This document shows positions 1,711-45,151 of a DNA stretch of 64,000 nt, piece by piece. Each line of letters starts with the position of its first letter. Positions within the stretch are counted from its first letter, which is position 1. Where the stretch lies: assembly GCA_016208495.1 (NCBI GenBank), contig JACQXX010000019.1, positions 62,001-126,000 of the forward strand, given 5' to 3'. The notes beneath the pieces are model-generated. The model was given only the letters and a program-made list of their open reading frames with translations, ran no database searches and had not been told where the DNA came from. A program made the translations under genes and the position numbers. This DNA is from Acidobacteriota bacterium (GTDB lineage Bacteria > Acidobacteriota > Blastocatellia > Chloracidobacteriales > Chloracidobacteriaceae).

Positions 1711-4700
1711 TCACTTGCCTGTCAGGCTGATCCACTCACCCGACAAAATGAAACTGGCCCAGTAAAACGGGTGTTGCCGCTTCGGATTTTTGAGCAGGTC
1801 CAATCGGACCTCACGCAAGGCAGCGCTTCTTCCCTGGCCCAACTTGAGCCGTTTGTAATAATCGGTCATCAAATCCTGCGTTCCCGCATCTGACACCGGC
1901 CACAAGCTCATCATCTGGCTTTCGGCACCGGCGAGCACAAACGCCCGTCGCAGGCCATACACTCCGTCACCGGTCTTCACGTCCCCAACACCGGTGTCAC
2001 AGGCTGACAACACAACCAGCTTGGTGCCCCACAGGTCAAGTCCCCCGGCTTCAAGCGCGGTCAGGGTGCCATCGTCACTGCCTTTTCCGGCGTTGGCACC
2101 GGCGAAAAAGAGCATGGACCGCAAGAGTGGATTGGCTTTTTTCAGCTCTTCGGGATCAACTGGTCTGGGAAGTTCTCCCAGGCGACCTTCCACAATGATT
2201 GGTGTTTCCACATTAGCCAGGAAATACCCGTGGGTGGCAATGTGCAGAAATAATGGACGATTCGCCGTCTTGAGCGTTTGTTTGGCGGCTTTGTCTTTTA
2301 CTTTGACGATGGCTTGTGGAAATTCAGCTTGAATGGCAACCGCTTCCCGTGATGTCCCAGGCAATGGCAACAAAGGCTTGACGGTTTGGCCAAAGACCGT
2401 CGGACCAACACCCGTGGCGTAATCCGGATTTGCCAGGACCAGCGGGCTGGTTTTGTTCGATAAACCATTGCGCAATCGCAAGAGGTCGCGTCCACTTGTC
2501 AGGTAAGAAATTTCATAGGTTTCGACCAGGTATTTCCCCTGTTCATCAACCAAAGCGTCAAATGGAATCAGGTTCAAATCCCCGTCGGCTGAAATCAACA
2601 ACCGACGAGTTTTTCCAAGTAGCTTCCGAACCGGCGCCATCACAAGCTGGTCGAGCACACGGGCTTTGGATTTGAGGTTAGCGCTGGAGCTTTTCGGATC
2701 ACGTACAACGTTGCGAAATTCGGTCACGACTTGCCCAATCGGTTCAGCCTCCCCCAGGTCAACCCAGGCAAGTTCGCCGTCTGCCTTGAGCACATACACT
2801 GCGAACCGAAAACCGTCATTATGGAGATAGGTTTTCGCGTCGAAGGGCTGATAGGCGATAAATTCGATCAAAGCTGCGTCTTGGGGAATTGCCTTTTGCA
2901 CAGATTCCAATGTGGTCGGTGTGGTTTGAATTTTGAATTCAACGCTGCGGGCACTAATGTCACGTTCCAGTTGGTCCTTGCGGGTTTCAAGTTCCTGAAT
3001 TTGAGCCTGATATTCTTCCGGTTTTCGGCGCCCGGCCCCTCTCAAGATCAAAGTCGCCAAGTGTGCATTGACGGTTGAATATTCATCCAGCAATTGTTGG
3101 GTTGATGCATCGCCGCGTTTTCGGAGCAAGGCAATCGTACTCGTCATCGCGTCCAGCACACGCCCCTTGCGGCGCAGAATGACCTCCAATGCCAGGCGAC
3201 TTGCCGCTGCATCCCTGGGAGCACTGTTTAAATGAAGCGATACACACCGATACATTTCAGCCGTGGTTTTGTTTAAGTAGAGCAACTTTTGTTGCTCAGA
3301 GCCCGACGCGAGATTCAGCATCAAATCGCGTTCGCGCAGTGCGTTAGCTCTGGTTTGAAAGGTGACGGCTTTGGCGAAATCACCCTCGGATTCATACAGA
3401 CCTGAGAGCATGTTGAGGAGAAAGACCACCGAAGGATGCGCAGTCCCCAACGTTTTTTCCATAATTCCAATTGCTTGTTGGAGGGTGGCTTCTGCTTTCG
3501 GAAAGTCCCTGGTGTTTTTGTACAGCCACCCCAGGTTACTTAATACAGTTGCTGTCTCTGGGTGGTTGGGGCCAACCGTTTTTTCCAAAATGGCACGGGC
3601 TTTCAACAAAATCGGTTCCGCCCGAGCAAACTCTTTCCGGCTGCTATAGAGCCCTCCCAAATTGGTGAAAATGAGCGCGGTTAATGGATGTTCCGGCCCA
3701 AATGTTTTTTCTCGGATGGCAATCGCCCGCAAATATAGCGACTCGGCTTTATCCAATTCCTTCTGGGCATGATAGAGCAATGCCAGATTGTTGATCGTAA
3801 TCGCCGTCACTGGATGCTCCGGTCCAAGGGTCTTTTCCCGAATCGCCAGCGCCCGGACAAACAGCGGTTCGGCACGGGTAAAATCACCTTTGTCTTTATA
3901 CAATCCAGCCAGATTTTGGAGTGCCCTGGCCGTTTCGGGATGTTCCGGCCCAAGAATCTTTTCGTAGCTGGCCAGTGACCGCATATAAAGCGGTTCCGCA
4001 CGCACATACTCGCCCTGCACGTGATACAGCAATGCCAGATTGCTCAATGATTGCGACGTATTGGGGTTCTCTGGGCCAAGCGCTTTTTCCCGAATATTGA
4101 GGGCACGCACAAAAAATGGTTCGGCTCGCGCATACTCTCCGCGAGCCTGGGACACCAACCCCAAAGCGTTGAGTGATTGGGCGGTATCCTCGTGCTCAGG
4201 TCCTGACATTTTCTCACGAATGGCCAGCGCCCGCAGGTTCAGCGTCTCAGAGCGGACCAAATCGGCCTTCAGGTATGAGACCCAGGCCAAATTATTGAGG
4301 ACGGTGGCGACATCCTTGTGGTCCAGGCCGTGTGTTTTTTCCATGACGGCCAGAGCACGGGTAAAGAGCGGCTCGGCGCGGGCCAGATCTCCTTTTTCCT
4401 GATATACCCAGCCAAGATGAAGCAATGAAAACCCAGTATCTGGATGCTCCGGCCCCGGTGTTTTTTCCCGGATGGCAAGTGCTCGCACCAGCAGGGGTTC
4501 AGCAGCGGCAAAACTCCCTTTTCCGAGATGTACTCTGCCCAGTCCATCAAGGGCGGCGGCGGTGTCGGGATGTTCCGGACCAAGGTGTTTTTCCGCCAAC
4601 AAGACCGCTTCTTCGGCTTTCGGTAAGGCATCGTTCAGGCGTCCGACCTTCAACAATTCGTCAACCTCAGCAGTGAGGCGGGTGATTTGCGTTTTTACCT

Positions 4701-40172: not shown

Positions 40173-43151
40173 ATGTCCACTACAGCTCCGTTGACCTCTC
40201 CACAACTATCAGCCCAGGCCGAAGATGAAGCGATCCTCATTCGCCGGGCCAGAGTCCACAACCTCAAAAATATCAGCGTTACCATTCCGTTCAACCAGCT
40301 CACGGTGGTTACCGGGGTCAGTGGATCCGGGAAATCTTCGCTGGCGTTTGACACGGTTTATGCCGAAGGACAGCGCCGGTATGTCGAATCACTCTCAGCC
40401 TATGCGCGACAGTTTCTCGAGCGGATTGATAAACCGGATGTTGATGAAATCACTGGGATTTGCCCGGCAATTGCCGTGCGTCAGAAAAATTCGGCTCGCA
40501 ACCCACGGTCAACCGTCGCCACCCAAACTGAAATTCATGACTACCTGCGGTTGCTCTATGCCCGTGTGGGGCGCACGTTTTGTTATCAATGTGGAATTGA
40601 AGTCAAACGTGATACACCCCAATCAATTGCCGATGCGGTGCTTGAACTGCCTGAAGGCACCCGGTTCTATGTTTTGTTTCCAGCGGCTTCAGGTATGAAT
40701 TTTATGCCGGAAGTAAATGTGGGAAGTGAAGATGACGGGAGTTTTGATGACCTCGACGACTCGATGATAGATGAATCGCTCACGCCCGATGGAGGTCTGA
40801 GACGAAGAGGCAAACCGGTGCGCTCACGCGAGGCGTCAATCACCCCTGAAGATGGTGAGGCTGAGTTGCGCCGGGTCAAAGGGTATCTCATGAGCCTGAT
40901 GCAGCGTGGGTTCACCCGATTGTACCGCCGTGGAGAGATCTTTGAACTGACAACCCCTGATGTGTTCCCGTTTTCTGATTTTCACGAAACTTCAGTTCTG
41001 GTTGACCGCCTGGTGGTGCGACCCGATACGCGCGAACGACTGGTTGATTCCCTGGAAACCGCCTATCGCGAAGGAAATGGTAAAGTTGAGATCCAGACAG
41101 TTGGTTCAAACACACAGCAGTTTCGATTTAGCGAAGATTTCGAGTGTAAGACCTGCCACATTGGCTACCCGATGCGTGAGCCGCGGTTGTTTAGTTTCAA
41201 CAACCCGTATGGCGCCTGCCCAACCTGTCAGGGATTTGGCGATATTGTCGGCCTGAATCTGGATCTGGTGGTCCCAAACCCGAAGTTGACACTTGAAGAG
41301 GGGGCAATTGAACCCTGGACTAAATCACAGTTTGAATTTGCCCAGCGTGAACTCCGGACCGTGTGCCAGCGCCATAAAATCCCGATGACAGTGGCGTTTC
41401 ATCAGCTCAGCCCGGAACATCGAACGCTTTTGTTTGAGGGCACCAACGGCTGGGGCGGCATTCGCGGCTTTTTTGATTCACTGGAGCAACAAAAATACAA
41501 AATGCACATCCGGGTGTTCCTGGCCAAGTATCGCAGCTACACCTGTTGCCCGGATTGCCATGGGGGAAGGCTTCGCCCTGAAGCCCGAGCGGTTCGAATT
41601 GGTGGAAAACCGATTGTTGACACCCTGGCGATGACGATTGAAGAGGCAGCCGATTTTTTTGAAAATTTATCCCTGACAACAGAAGAACTGGCAATTGCAG
41701 ACCGAGTTTTGATCGAAATTCGCCATCGGCTGCGATTTTTGAAAGACGTCGGGTTAGAATACCTGACGCTTGACCGGCTCACCTCTTCCCTTTCTGGTGG
41801 TGAAGCCCAACGGATTCAACTGGCGACCCATTTGGGATCCTCACTGGTTGGAGCGCTTTATGTGCTGGATGAGCCAAGCATTGGCCTGCACTCACGTGAC
41901 GGTCAGCGGCTGATCCAGGTCCTGCAGCGGTTGCGTGATATTGGGAATACCGTTCTGGTCGTCGAGCATGATCCTGACATGATGCTGGCGGCGGATTATT
42001 TGATTGACATTGGACCTGGAGCGGGTGAGTTTGGTGGCGAAGTCATCTTTCAGGGTTCATTACCAGAATTGTTAAAACACCCAACATCGTTGACCGCCAA
42101 ATACCTGCGGAAAGAAAACAGCATCAAGAAGCCACAAACTCGACGGACACCTGGAACTCGCAAATTAACGGTTTCCGGTGCCAATGAACATAACCTGAAG
42201 AACCTCACGGTTGAAATTCCTTTGGGATTGATGGTGTGTGTCACGGGTGTTTCTGGCTCCGGGAAGTCAACGCTGGTTCATGACGTGCTCTACCGGGGAC
42301 TGCAGCGGGAAACTGAAAATGGAAAACGTATCCCGACGTTTGAACTTGAGGGTAGGCAATTCATTGATGAAGTTATTTGTGTTGATCAATCCCCAATTGG
42401 TCGAACCCCACGCTCAAACCCGGCGACCTATCTCAAGGTCTATGATGGGATTCGGGAACTGTTTGCCGCCACGCGCGAAGCCCAGGGCGCGGGCTGGACG
42501 GCCAGTCATTTTTCGTTCAATCTGCCCGGCGGTCGGTGTGAAACCTGTCAGGGAGACGGAACCGTCACGGTTGAAATGCAATTTTTGGCGGACGTGGAAT
42601 TGATCTGTGACGATTGTCATGGCCAGCGCTTTCGCCCTGAAGTACTGGCCGTCAAGTACCGTGGGAAAAGCATTCACGATGTGCTCAACCTGACGGTCCG
42701 CGAAGCAATTAGTTTTTTCTCAAATGTCAAAAAAATCAGTGATCGCCTGAAGGTTCTGGATGAAGTCGGCCTTGGATATTTACGGCTGGGACAATCGGCA
42801 ACCACTCTTTCCGGGGGTGAAGCCCAACGCATCAAGCTGGCCACTTTTCTGTCACGAACTGGAACAAACCGCATGCTCTACATCTTTGATGAACCCACCA
42901 CTGGGCTTCATTTTGATGATATCAATAAGCTGCTGTTTGCATTTCGGCGCTTACTTGATCTGGGGGCTTCGCTGGTAATCATCGAGCACAACCTGGATGT
43001 GATCAAAGTTGCCGATTGGGTCATTGATCTGGGGCCGGAGGGCGGCCATGCTGGAGGAACCGTCGTTGGGTGCGGCACACCTGAAGAGATTGCCCAGTTA
43101 CCACACTCCCACACAGGCCGGTTTCTGCGCAAAGTTTTAACGACAGCCTAG
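40173..43151 (+). CDS. uvrA: Excinuclease ABC subunit A
   Basis: 992 residues, about 50 longer than usual. First Walker [21 protein letters not shown] (K54), first signature [15 protein letters not shown], second Walker [18 protein letters not shown], second signature [16 protein letters not shown], with matching Walker B DEPSIGLH and DEPTTGLHF. Zinc-finger cysteines are seen in CYQCG, CKTC...CPTC and CETC...CDDCHG. The UvrB-contact region is present, so this is a canonical UvrA, not UvrA2. It finds bulky DNA lesions for UvrBC excision. The extra length is an acidic then basic insertion at ~180-236 ([17 protein letters not shown] ... [11 protein letters not shown]). No Shine-Dalgarno; an array lies just upstream. 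Confidence 0.96.
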
Positions 43152-43171
43152 AATGAAGAATGAAGAATGAA
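43151..43171. repeat. GAATGAA heptamer array
   Basis: Three exact GAATGAA units, the first overlapping the uvrA stop codon. Confidence 0.6.
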
Positions 43172-43260
43172 AAAAGTGGTTAGTGATCGTTAAAAAATAA
43201 GTTCCTGGAAGCACGAGTATCCATTCACGTTTCGGCTTTGGGTTTTGCACCTCGAAGAGT

Positions 43261-43450
43261 TGCCGTTCGGATAGCCGGTCGGTTGCTCGGCTTTGCGAGC
43301 TACCACCGGAAAAGGATCAATCTCTCCCTCATTCTCTGCGCTTCGCCCGCGCCCCCGCAGGGGCGCGGGCGAAGCGCAGAACGACAAAGGGTGGCCCTGG
43401 TGACCGGTGGTAGGCCCAAAGCGGCCAACCGACCGGCTATCCGAACGGCA
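43261..43450. repeat. 190-bp triple-nested palindromic element
   Basis: Three nested perfect inverted repeats: outer 25 bp (43261-43285 with 43426-43450), middle 10 bp CTACCACCGG (43300-43309 with 43404-43413), inner 21 bp TCTGCGCTTCGCCCGCGCC.. (43335-43355 with 43360-43380, 4-bp loop). It would fold into one long cruciform or RNA stem and lies between uvrA and the DUF445 gene. Not a recognised family. Confidence 0.8.
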
Positions 43451-43577
43451 GCCCTCCGGGATGCTCAATCCAAATGCTGGTGCCCCAAATGAAAAGGGGA
43501 AGTTGTTTTTTTACGCCCCCTTAGTGGTTGGTGGTTAGTACCTGGTTCCTGGTTCTTCTTCGAAAGTATTGATTTCT

Positions 43578-43605
43578 AACCACTAACCACTAACCGCTAA
43601 CCACT
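43578..43605. repeat. AACCACT heptamer array
   Basis: Four tandem units AACCACT (one AACCGCT), part of a loose inverted pair with GTGGTTAG words near 43520-43540; ends 32 bp before the DUF445 start. Confidence 0.6.
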
Positions 43606-43637
43606 TTTTCATTCTTCATCCTCAATTCTTCATTCCA

Positions 43638-44486
43638 ATGAATCTCACCCGCCTTGCGCTTGATTTAAGCCCATTGGTGATTGCAACCCTGCACGGCTAT
43701 GCGGCTGCCTGGCTGGCCGTGAAAATGCTGTTTCGTCCCCGGCATCCAATCTATCTCTTTGGGAAAAAATTGCCTTTCACCCCAGGATTGCTGCCGAGTG
43801 AACGTGACCGGTTTGTGGATACCCTGGCTGGAATCGTTGCGGAACGACTTCTCACCGCTGAAGTGATTAGTCAGGAATTAAATGCTTTACGGCTTGAAGA
43901 AGAAGTCGAGGTTTTAGCCCGTCATCGCTATTCGGAACGCTCGCAACCAGAGGCATTGATCCAGGTCATCAGCACTCAATTAATGGGCGTACTGAACCGG
44001 TTAAAAACCTCGGCTGAAGCTCAGCACCAACTGGCTCAGGAAGCTCGCTTGTTCCTGGAGCGCCAAATCGAGCGTGAATATAGTCCAGCAGTAAGATATG
44101 CGAGTCGGTTCCTATTGAGCGAAGATCTGATGTTCCGAACCATCCATTTTGTGATCCAGGATGTCACATCCCGGCTTTCAGATAGCATTACGATTCGAAC
44201 CATTCTGCGGCAAACCATTGCCCAACTCCCTGAGGCGGTGTTTCAAGGTGAATATCCACTCCAAAAACGGGTCGTTCAGGATTTAGTTGGGCAATTAACC
44301 AGCCGGCTTGATTTTAAAGGAATTATTAAACGGCGATTTGATACGTTCTCAAACGAAATTTTTGAACAGATCATGTACGAATCAGCCGGGCGTGAAATCC
44401 GAGGGATTATGCAGTTTGGAACGGTGGTAGGATTCATGATTGGAGCGGTCCAAACGCTGGTGAATCTGGTGCAGTACCTCTGGTAA
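43638..44486 (+). CDS. DUF445 family membrane protein
   Basis: 282 residues. The start AALHGYAAAWLAVKML-type block (here HGYAAAWLAVKMLFRPRHP) followed by YLFGKKLPFTPGLLPSERD is diagnostic of DUF445 (YheB-like). It has an N-terminal membrane helix, a long amphipathic helical middle and a C-terminal membrane helix (FGTVVGFMIGAVQTLVNLVQYL). Membrane-topology-linked function is unknown; in Firmicutes relatives it is a peripheral coat or envelope protein. No Shine-Dalgarno site; TTCTTCATTCC precedes the ATG. A clear terminator follows. Confidence 0.85.
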   Translation: MNLTRLALDLSPLVIATLHGYAAAWLAVKMLFRPRHPIYLFGKKLPFTPGLLPSERDRFVDTLAGIVAERLLTAEVISQELNALRLEEEVEVLARHRYSERSQPEALIQVISTQLMGVLNRLKTSAEAQHQLAQEARLFLERQIEREYSPAVRYASRFLLSEDLMFRTIHFVIQDVTSRLSDSITIRTILRQTIAQLPEAVFQGEYPLQKRVVQDLVGQLTSRLDFKGIIKRRFDTFSNEIFEQIMYESAGREIRGIMQFGTVVGFMIGAVQTLVNLVQYLW

Positions 44487-44554: not shown

Positions 44555-45151
44555 TTAGGAACCACTTTGCTCACCCAGTGGGGGTGAGGTTGATTGAGCG
44601 CCAGTTCCACCAACCTCAACCCGAATGACCCCCGATAAATCAATGTAATACCCATTGCGGCCAGTTGCCGATAGTCCACTCGACTGAATAGGATCAGCCT
44701 GGATATAAAATCCACGATAGACGGTTACCCCGCCACTCGTAAAAGAATCAGCCAGGGCTGGATCCAACCCGGCAGGTAAGATCCCGGGACCAATCGTAAA
44801 ATAATATCCTGATTTGGGAACATTGTTCGGTTGACTTCCCAAAACTTCATCAATGGCACCAGCCGTCAGGTTTTTCAATTCAACAAAATCAACGAGAAAT
44901 CCATTTCCATTTCGAAATGCCATTTGGGCGGTGTGGTAAGCACGAAGGGTTGAAACGGCTGAAGCCTGGTTCGCCGCCCGGCGTGAAGCTTGCAGGTTTG
45001 GAACAGCAATCGCGGCAATGATTCCAATAATGGCAACCACGATTAATAACTCAATTAAGGAAAAGCCATGTGAGCACTTTGATCGGGCAGGGCGAATCGG
45101 TCGCAGGATGTTTCGGTGTCTGAAAGATTCATTTGCAAAACGCATATCCAT
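44555..45151 (-). CDS. Type IV pilin / prepilin-type protein
   Basis: 198 residues; GAGAGG lies 5 nt before the ATG (a second ATG two codons in is possible). A 29-residue basic leader ends at Gly, cleaved as SHG|FSLIELLIVVAIIGIIAAIAVPNL (read here in parts: FSLIELLIVVAIIGII), with Glu at mature position 5, the class III prepilin signal. The mature globular domain has YHTAQMAFRNGNGFLVDFVE, KSGYYFTIGPG and GYYIDLSGVIR, the last resembling the usual pilin end. It is processed by PilD and assembled into a type IV pilus or T2SS pseudopilus. No other pil genes are nearby. A sigma-54-type promoter ~105 bp upstream fits known pilA regulation. Confidence 0.9.
   Translation of the reverse strand: MDMRFANESFRHRNILRPIRPARSKCSHGFSLIELLIVVAIIGIIAAIAVPNLQASRRAANQASAVSTLRAYHTAQMAFRNGNGFLVDFVELKNLTAGAIDEVLGSQPNNVPKSGYYFTIGPGILPAGLDPALADSFTSGGVTVYRGFYIQADPIQSSGLSATGRNGYYIDLSGVIRVEVGGTGAQSTSPPLGEQSGS

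Follow-up and report, generated by a model that had tools for sequence, protein, structure and literature searches.

The window analysed here is a stretch of 64,000 nucleotides from an Acidobacteriota genome, and it carries a nested palindrome between uvrA and a DUF445-family gene (Table 1). The three perfect arms of 25, 10 and 21 bp reported in the initial annotation were all found in their places, and around them the inverted repeat extends imperfectly (49-nt arms, 84%). The palindrome is far beyond chance: folded as RNA it has a z-score of −13.3, folded as DNA one of −11.5, and none of 100 shuffles equals it. The interval first drawn for it, 43261–43450, is correct for the arms but leaves out the side hairpins, the terminal inverted repeats (TIRs) and a 3-bp target duplication. 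The full element is 338 bp long with TTA on both sides, a complete member of its family. Farther downstream, an ORF on the minus strand (44555–45151) starts with a type IV prepilin-like N-terminus (GFSLIELLIVVAIIGIIAAIAVPNL).

Table 1. Features of the palindromic element, its neighbours and the Y1 transposase locus L128 (window positions unless a contig or locus is named)
Feature	Position	Strand	Basis or remark
uvrA, upstream neighbour, 992-aa ORF	40173..43151	+	28 bp between its end and the left target duplication; gene name from the initial annotation
Left target-site duplication TTA	43180..43182	.	sequence; identical TTA/TTA or TAA/TAA in 51/60 elements of a preselected set
TIR-flanked miniature element (MITE shell and REPIN core)	43183..43520	+	TIR pair in the window and dozens of other places; identical flanking TTA; 338 bp
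Left terminal inverted repeat (TIR A) GTGATCGTTAAAAAATAAGTTCCTGG	43183..43208	+	TIR A matches: 160 places in own genome, 0/29 relatives
Imperfect inverted repeat, full extent	43237..43474		49-nt arms, 84%
Left side hairpin GCA-C-CTC-GAA-GAG-T-TGC, REP unit 1	43247..43263	+	sequence; 59 left-side hairpins all Watson-Crick, five stem types
Outer perfect arms, 25 bp	43261..43285 / 43426..43450		found as annotated
ATAG tag, foot of main hairpin, REP unit 1	43271..43274	+	sequence; equivalent NTAG at class-wide transposase loci
Main REP hairpin, unit 1, CCGGTCGGTTG..CTACCACCGG	43275..43309	+	near-identical to the units beside the L128 Y1 transposase gene
Middle perfect arms, 10 bp	43300..43309 / 43404..43413		found as annotated
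Central GC-rich hairpin, 21-bp perfect stem, 4-nt loop CGCA	43335..43380 (arms 43335..43355 / 43360..43380)	.	sequence and stem covariation
Main REP hairpin, unit 2, inverted	43404..43436	-	sequence; unit comparison
ATAG tag, unit 2 (CTAT on + strand)	43437..43440	-	sequence
Side hairpin, unit 2 (GCAGCCCTCCGGGATGC on + strand)	43448..43464	-	sequence; family right-side hairpins 66/67 Watson-Crick
Right terminal inverted repeat (TIR A)	43495..43520	-	TIR pair search
Right target-site duplication TTA	43521..43523	.	sequence; TTA/TAA agreement across elements
DUF445-family gene, downstream neighbour, 282-aa ORF	43638..44486	+	gene name from the initial annotation
L128 Y1 transposase gene	C102:39572-40024		single-copy gene, 151-aa product
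REP units flanking the L128 gene	L128:1294-1357 and 2337-2400		plus two degenerate units

The element is highly repeated in its own genome, an assembly of 8.38 Mb in 177 contigs. A 251-bp query gave dozens of matches (40 of 195 candidates scored), and a 43-base pattern of the right arm with at most 3 mismatches gave 74 matches and none with the reversed control. Some copies are 97–98% identical to the window copy. The initial annotation had suspected recent spread and proposed a search for further copies, a unique sequence being what would speak against it; with at least 74 copies in one genome, some of them this similar, the suspicion is supported. Several copies sit at contig ends, where a repeat that interrupts assembly would be expected, and 63 of the 74 lie outside long ORFs on a crude ORF map. 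The complete element is present in none of the 38 other relatives examined, and G001, from the same family as the source genome, has just one related hairpin unit.

The alignment of the copies reveals ends beyond the palindrome, namely TIRs of about 26 bp, GGGACTGTAAAAAATCAACTTCCCG (TIR A), and a 3-bp duplication. Identical TTA or TAA stands on both sides of 51/60 TIR-A elements, an agreement within a set preselected by a script that retained pairs with TTA/TAA or identical flanks. TIR A matches 160 places in the genome and is absent from all 29 relatives tested. It also bounds elements of 108–119, 142–146 and about 213 bp. The family thus has the inverted terminal repeats and the fixed-length target-site duplication of MITEs.

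Short, non-coding, with several size classes per TIR and a TTA/TAA duplication, the outer layer resembles the MITEs of the IS5/PIF-Harbinger type, which have TNA or TWA duplications. A TWA duplication is the product of IS5/PIF-Harbinger-like DDE transposases. Unlike such MITEs, the element here has a REPIN in its interior and no matching DDE transposase was found in the genome. The search for an autonomous TIR-A element in the 177 contigs gave no match to PF13340; the two genes that match PF01609 lack TIR A, and the unpaired TIR-A ends inspected were all truncated MITEs or contig ends. Judged by the duplication, the outer layer would belong with IS5/IS1031. A tract of GTGGTTAGTGGTTAG and TTCATTCTTCATTC repeats surrounds the window element (43160–43182 and 43521–43636), and flanks of TAACCACTAACC are common to many TIR-A elements genome-wide. 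Such repeats may be their preferred targets.

The arms of the palindrome are two diverged copies of one unit. Each unit is ordered as a 17-nt side hairpin, GCA-Y-NNN-GAA-NNN-Y-TGC, then CGTTCGGATAG and then a main hairpin, CCGGT(C)GGTTG..CTACCACCGG. Two such REP units face each other across the central GC-rich hairpin, and hence the window copy has two inverted REP-type hairpins forming one long hairpin, as a REPIN or BIME does. Its copies are many, dispersed and mostly intergenic, and at L128 the genome has a cognate Y1 transposase gene with this REP on either side. The foot tag is not the GTAG of REPINs but ATAG in the window copy; at other loci of the class it is GTAG, ATAG or TTAG. The initial annotation could fit the palindrome to no known family, and it can now be given one: a REPIN, that is, an inverted REP doublet, inside a MITE.

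The likeness to the REPIN/BIME systems with RAYT (Bertels & Rainey 2011, PMC3116915; Nunvar et al. 2010, PMC2817692; TnpA-REP biochemistry, PMC8266576) includes the inverted REP hairpin pair, the self-folding spacer, the compensatory stem changes, the high copy number, the REP units adjoining a single-copy Y1 transposase gene and the REPIN-deleted sites. The differences are an IS200-like transposase with the subclass 1.2 signature and a score under the NCBIfam RAYT cut-off, an NTAG tag (ATAG here), an extra side hairpin ahead of the tag, pairs spanning about 160 bp and the travel inside a DDE-type MITE. GTAG-tagged REPs with RAYT, listed for Proteobacteria, Cyanobacteria, Chloroflexi and the PVC group (Di Nocera et al. 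2013, PMC3733652), are likewise tagged palindromes beside a tyrosine transposase gene, but the tag and the unit architecture differ here.

The stems covary strongly. The central hairpin is perfect in 42/60 measurable copies, and its stem occurs in 34 different sequences. In a set of 40 distinct stems, 97% of the positions pair Watson-Crick, and extra pair types number 38 versus 16.7 in column shuffles, which leave the relatedness between copies in place (0/2000). The side hairpins pair in 59/59 left and 66/67 right cases matched, using different stems on the two sides, mostly CCT/CCC on the left and CGC/CTC on the right. The central loop is found in both orientations (TGC, GCA).

Y1_Tnp (PF01797) has nine matches in the genome, and one of them, L128, carries the REP of the palindrome. 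The unit GCACTCCGAAGGATTGC-CGTTCGGATAG-CCGGTCGGTTGCTCGGCTACAGCGAGCTACCACCGG stands on both sides of this gene, the second copy having a few changes. The two intact flanking units are in the same orientation, not inverted, and without TIR A. Repeats are abundant in the region. The L128 protein scores 84 bits with PF01797 and 62.5 bits with the NCBIfam IS200 model NF033573, above its cut-off of 55, and only 25.8 bits with the RAYT model NF047646 (REP_Tyr_transpos), under the cut-off of 80; hence it is not a RAYT by NCBIfam. Among proteins of solved structure it matches Y1 transposases, ISHp608 TnpA being one of its nearest relatives there. An IS200/IS605 insertion sequence moving its gene and ends as a multi-copy unit was considered and rejected, as the L128 gene is single-copy.

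In the published classification, TnpA-Y1 subclass 1.2 has the signature DH[IV]H, WQ and YIKNQKEHH, a length of about 148 aa and a low copy number, occurs mostly in Cyanobacteria and Bacteroidetes, and has no REP or secondary structures reported (Quentin et al. 2018, PMC6006769). The L128 protein has DHVH, WQ, YIHNQENHH and 151 aa, so it is alike in residue signature, length and low copy number. It differs from the subclass as published in that the genes, in this class and a Bacteroides, are flanked by dispersed tagged palindromes. In class 3 of Acidobacteria and Planctomycetes, Y1 genes are also accompanied by hairpins in high copy number, about 600 of them in Solibacter (PMC6006769). However, the core profile of that class is distinct, its Y motif ends in EQ and its foot is CnGA, whereas Y...Q..HH and NTAG are what the genes here show.

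The other full-length Y1 matches of the genome are 43–55% identical to the L128 protein, and those tested carry their own units. L126, L127, L129 and L130 are closely similar genes with another unit, GGATAGTAG-CCGGTG..CACCCACCGG, and a true GTAG tag; L123, L124 and L125 have further distinct units. Several REPtron-like loci thus coexist in this genome. When the contigs of other genomes were searched with the L128 protein, only 28–50% identical proteins from other phyla came up and no close relative of the source species.

Related Y1 genes were found in 28/39 genomes searched. A unit shared by both sides of the gene within 500 bp was seen at 23/27 loci of the class, these being the loci with both flanks and counting L128 and L142, the same gene, twice; shuffled sequences gave 1/27 and stretches further out 2/23. 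At 17/26 loci an NTAG precedes a perfect hairpin of 6 bp or longer, versus 2/26 when shuffled. Other families, too, have several copies of the tagged hairpin, with 22 places in G026 and 9 in G046 (reversed controls zero; the pattern is nearly palindromic and one site is countable on either strand). It often forms inverted pairs, 119–149 bp apart in G026, G047 and G052.

The same architecture recurs in another phylum. Bacteroides sp. 519 has 45 tagged units, 38 of them in inverted pairs about 115 bp apart; counted from the listed coordinates, 19 inverted pairs are 96–122 bp apart and one is 584 bp apart, which fits a transposase gene with flanking inverted units. At L133 of this genome, a subclass 1.2 gene is enclosed by inverted triple-hairpin units, and 19 gene-less inverted pairs lie elsewhere. 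They look like an autonomous element and its REPIN derivatives. The shared units at 23/27 loci and in Bacteroides sp. 519 contradict the published trait of subclass 1.2 as having no REP. Searches of the open-access literature turned up neither a description of a REPIN within a MITE nor one of REPs beside subclass 1.2 genes.

The two layers are not always joined. TIR A bounds 31 of the 74 copies at both ends and 50 at one end or more, while 19 have other ends only and 5 have neither. The alternative ends (TIR B) of the 19 copies are CTTTCACGTGTAGG..CCTACACGTGAAAG, and no clear duplication was seen at them. At L088, L122 and L113, the sequence of a small REPIN-free MITE is retained directly beside the REPIN end, as expected if the REPIN entered a MITE. 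Four REPIN-less shells of 142–146 bp are joined at a CGAA/CCGAA repeat with the target duplication intact. They keep the outer REPIN sequence and therefore are deletions rather than the ancestral empty state. REPIN loss of a similar sort was found by population sequencing of Pseudomonas (PMC3116915), and palindrome slippage would yield such shells equally.

On a tree of the cores, the MITE shells do not form one clade, requiring at least three label changes and eight in parsimony. This mixing leaves a single REPIN capture by the MITE unproven: one capture followed by recombination, for example between the arms, and repeated capture are both possible.

We consider the palindrome to be a two-layer non-autonomous mobile element, a REPIN of the L128-type Y1 system amplified within a DDE-type MITE, with a probability of roughly 0.78. 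This reading draws on the copies, their TIRs and duplications, the REP units shared with the transposase gene, the covariation and the REPIN-deleted shells, and on the REPIN architecture in the relatives and in another phylum. By analogy with the RAYT/REPIN systems, the L128 HUH/Y1 transposase probably recognises and moves a single-stranded form of the REPIN. The homology and the flanking units suggest that the L128 protein or its ancestor most likely acts on the REP pair in single-stranded form, which would become available when replication exposes the palindrome, and cuts and joins it at the ATAG foot. The REPIN would then have entered the TIR-flanked MITE with its TWA duplication, and the composite may have been amplified via the cut-and-paste route. 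Going by the TIRs and the duplications, a DDE transposase absent from the assembly, or since lost, would have moved the REPIN-carrying MITE.

A simpler account is an ordinary DDE-type MITE alone, with the palindrome as its interior and MITE fragments that happen to flank the Y1 gene. The clear TIRs and TWA duplications and the repeat-rich L128 region agree with it. However, 19 copies and the L128 units are without TIR A, and the same unit architecture stands beside related transposase genes of the class and of Bacteroides, with TIR A absent in 29 relatives, so we disfavour this account as unlikely. Or else, a structured RNA or a bidirectional terminator, protecting or terminating the 3′ ends of mRNAs, might maintain the palindrome, its spread being secondary. 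The very stable fold, the strong covariation and the mostly intergenic copies, at 16 convergent versus 7 divergent sites on the crude ORF map, could be so understood, and the tandem-flanked copies have more G.T than A.C mismatches on the sense strand (14 versus 7, not significant, the arm part being distorted because many left arms are out of register by one base). On the canonical strand, however, the central-hairpin mismatches are G.T and A.C in equal number, 10 each, and nothing points to RNA. Moreover, the orientation is 20 sense versus 20 antisense, no Rfam 15 family matches at the gathering score with weak hits to hairpin families only, and no fixed position beside any gene family was noticed. 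A role in RNA thus seems highly improbable, and of the structural selection suggested in the initial annotation the arm-to-arm covariation between copies stands but not an RNA.

The covariation may also be mechanical, if template switching in replication corrects one arm from the other and the perfection carries no function. The symmetric mismatch classes, the recurrent palindrome deletions and the loop present as TGC and also, reverse-complemented, as GCA, as if the centre had been inverted, are in favour. Against it, the left and right side hairpins differ yet each is self-complementary, all on the left and 66/67 on the right, and arm-to-arm correction fails to explain that. We entertain this mechanism as a possibility of less than even odds, and it is compatible with the REPIN-in-MITE reading.

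The best reading of the REPIN is that it belongs to an under-recognised class of REPtron, spread also inside a DDE-type MITE. It seems reasonably probable that the subclass 1.2 Y1 proteins are a REPtron lineage keeping NTAG-tagged REPINs in at least two phyla, with a REPIN captured here by a DDE-type MITE, so that a HUH single-strand system and a double-strand cut-and-paste system spread one palindrome. A group reported as repeat-less would be linked to a repeat family of its own. It would also be a second Y1 lineage with a clear flanking REP unit, near the true IS200 transposases and the solved structures.

To our knowledge, REPIN movement is still unproven even for the classical RAYTs. The REPINs here resemble an L128-type unit pair minus the gene; in Bacteroides sp. 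519, the gene lies within one pair and is absent from 19 others. With both kinds of pairs at hand, it is directly testable whether REPINs are gene-less derivatives of IS200-like elements. The composite suggests hitch-hiking of a REPIN on a MITE as a route to higher copy number that would not need the Y1 enzyme. This is a caution against reading the copy number as RAYT activity.

Other small elements accompany those described above. A REPIN-free MITE of about 213 bp, bounded by TIR A and containing a stretch of CGTGTTTTTCGTG-type repeats, is high-copy (L097, L102, L105, L010:2693-2904 and others), and at L010 it directly adjoins a REPIN-bearing element. A third small element of about 120 bp, AAGTACCTTACCGAAAATTTCCAGACATTTTAACCACG..AAGGTACTTA, interrupts the Y1 transposase gene in L129 (1383–1500) and also the centre of the palindrome in L088.
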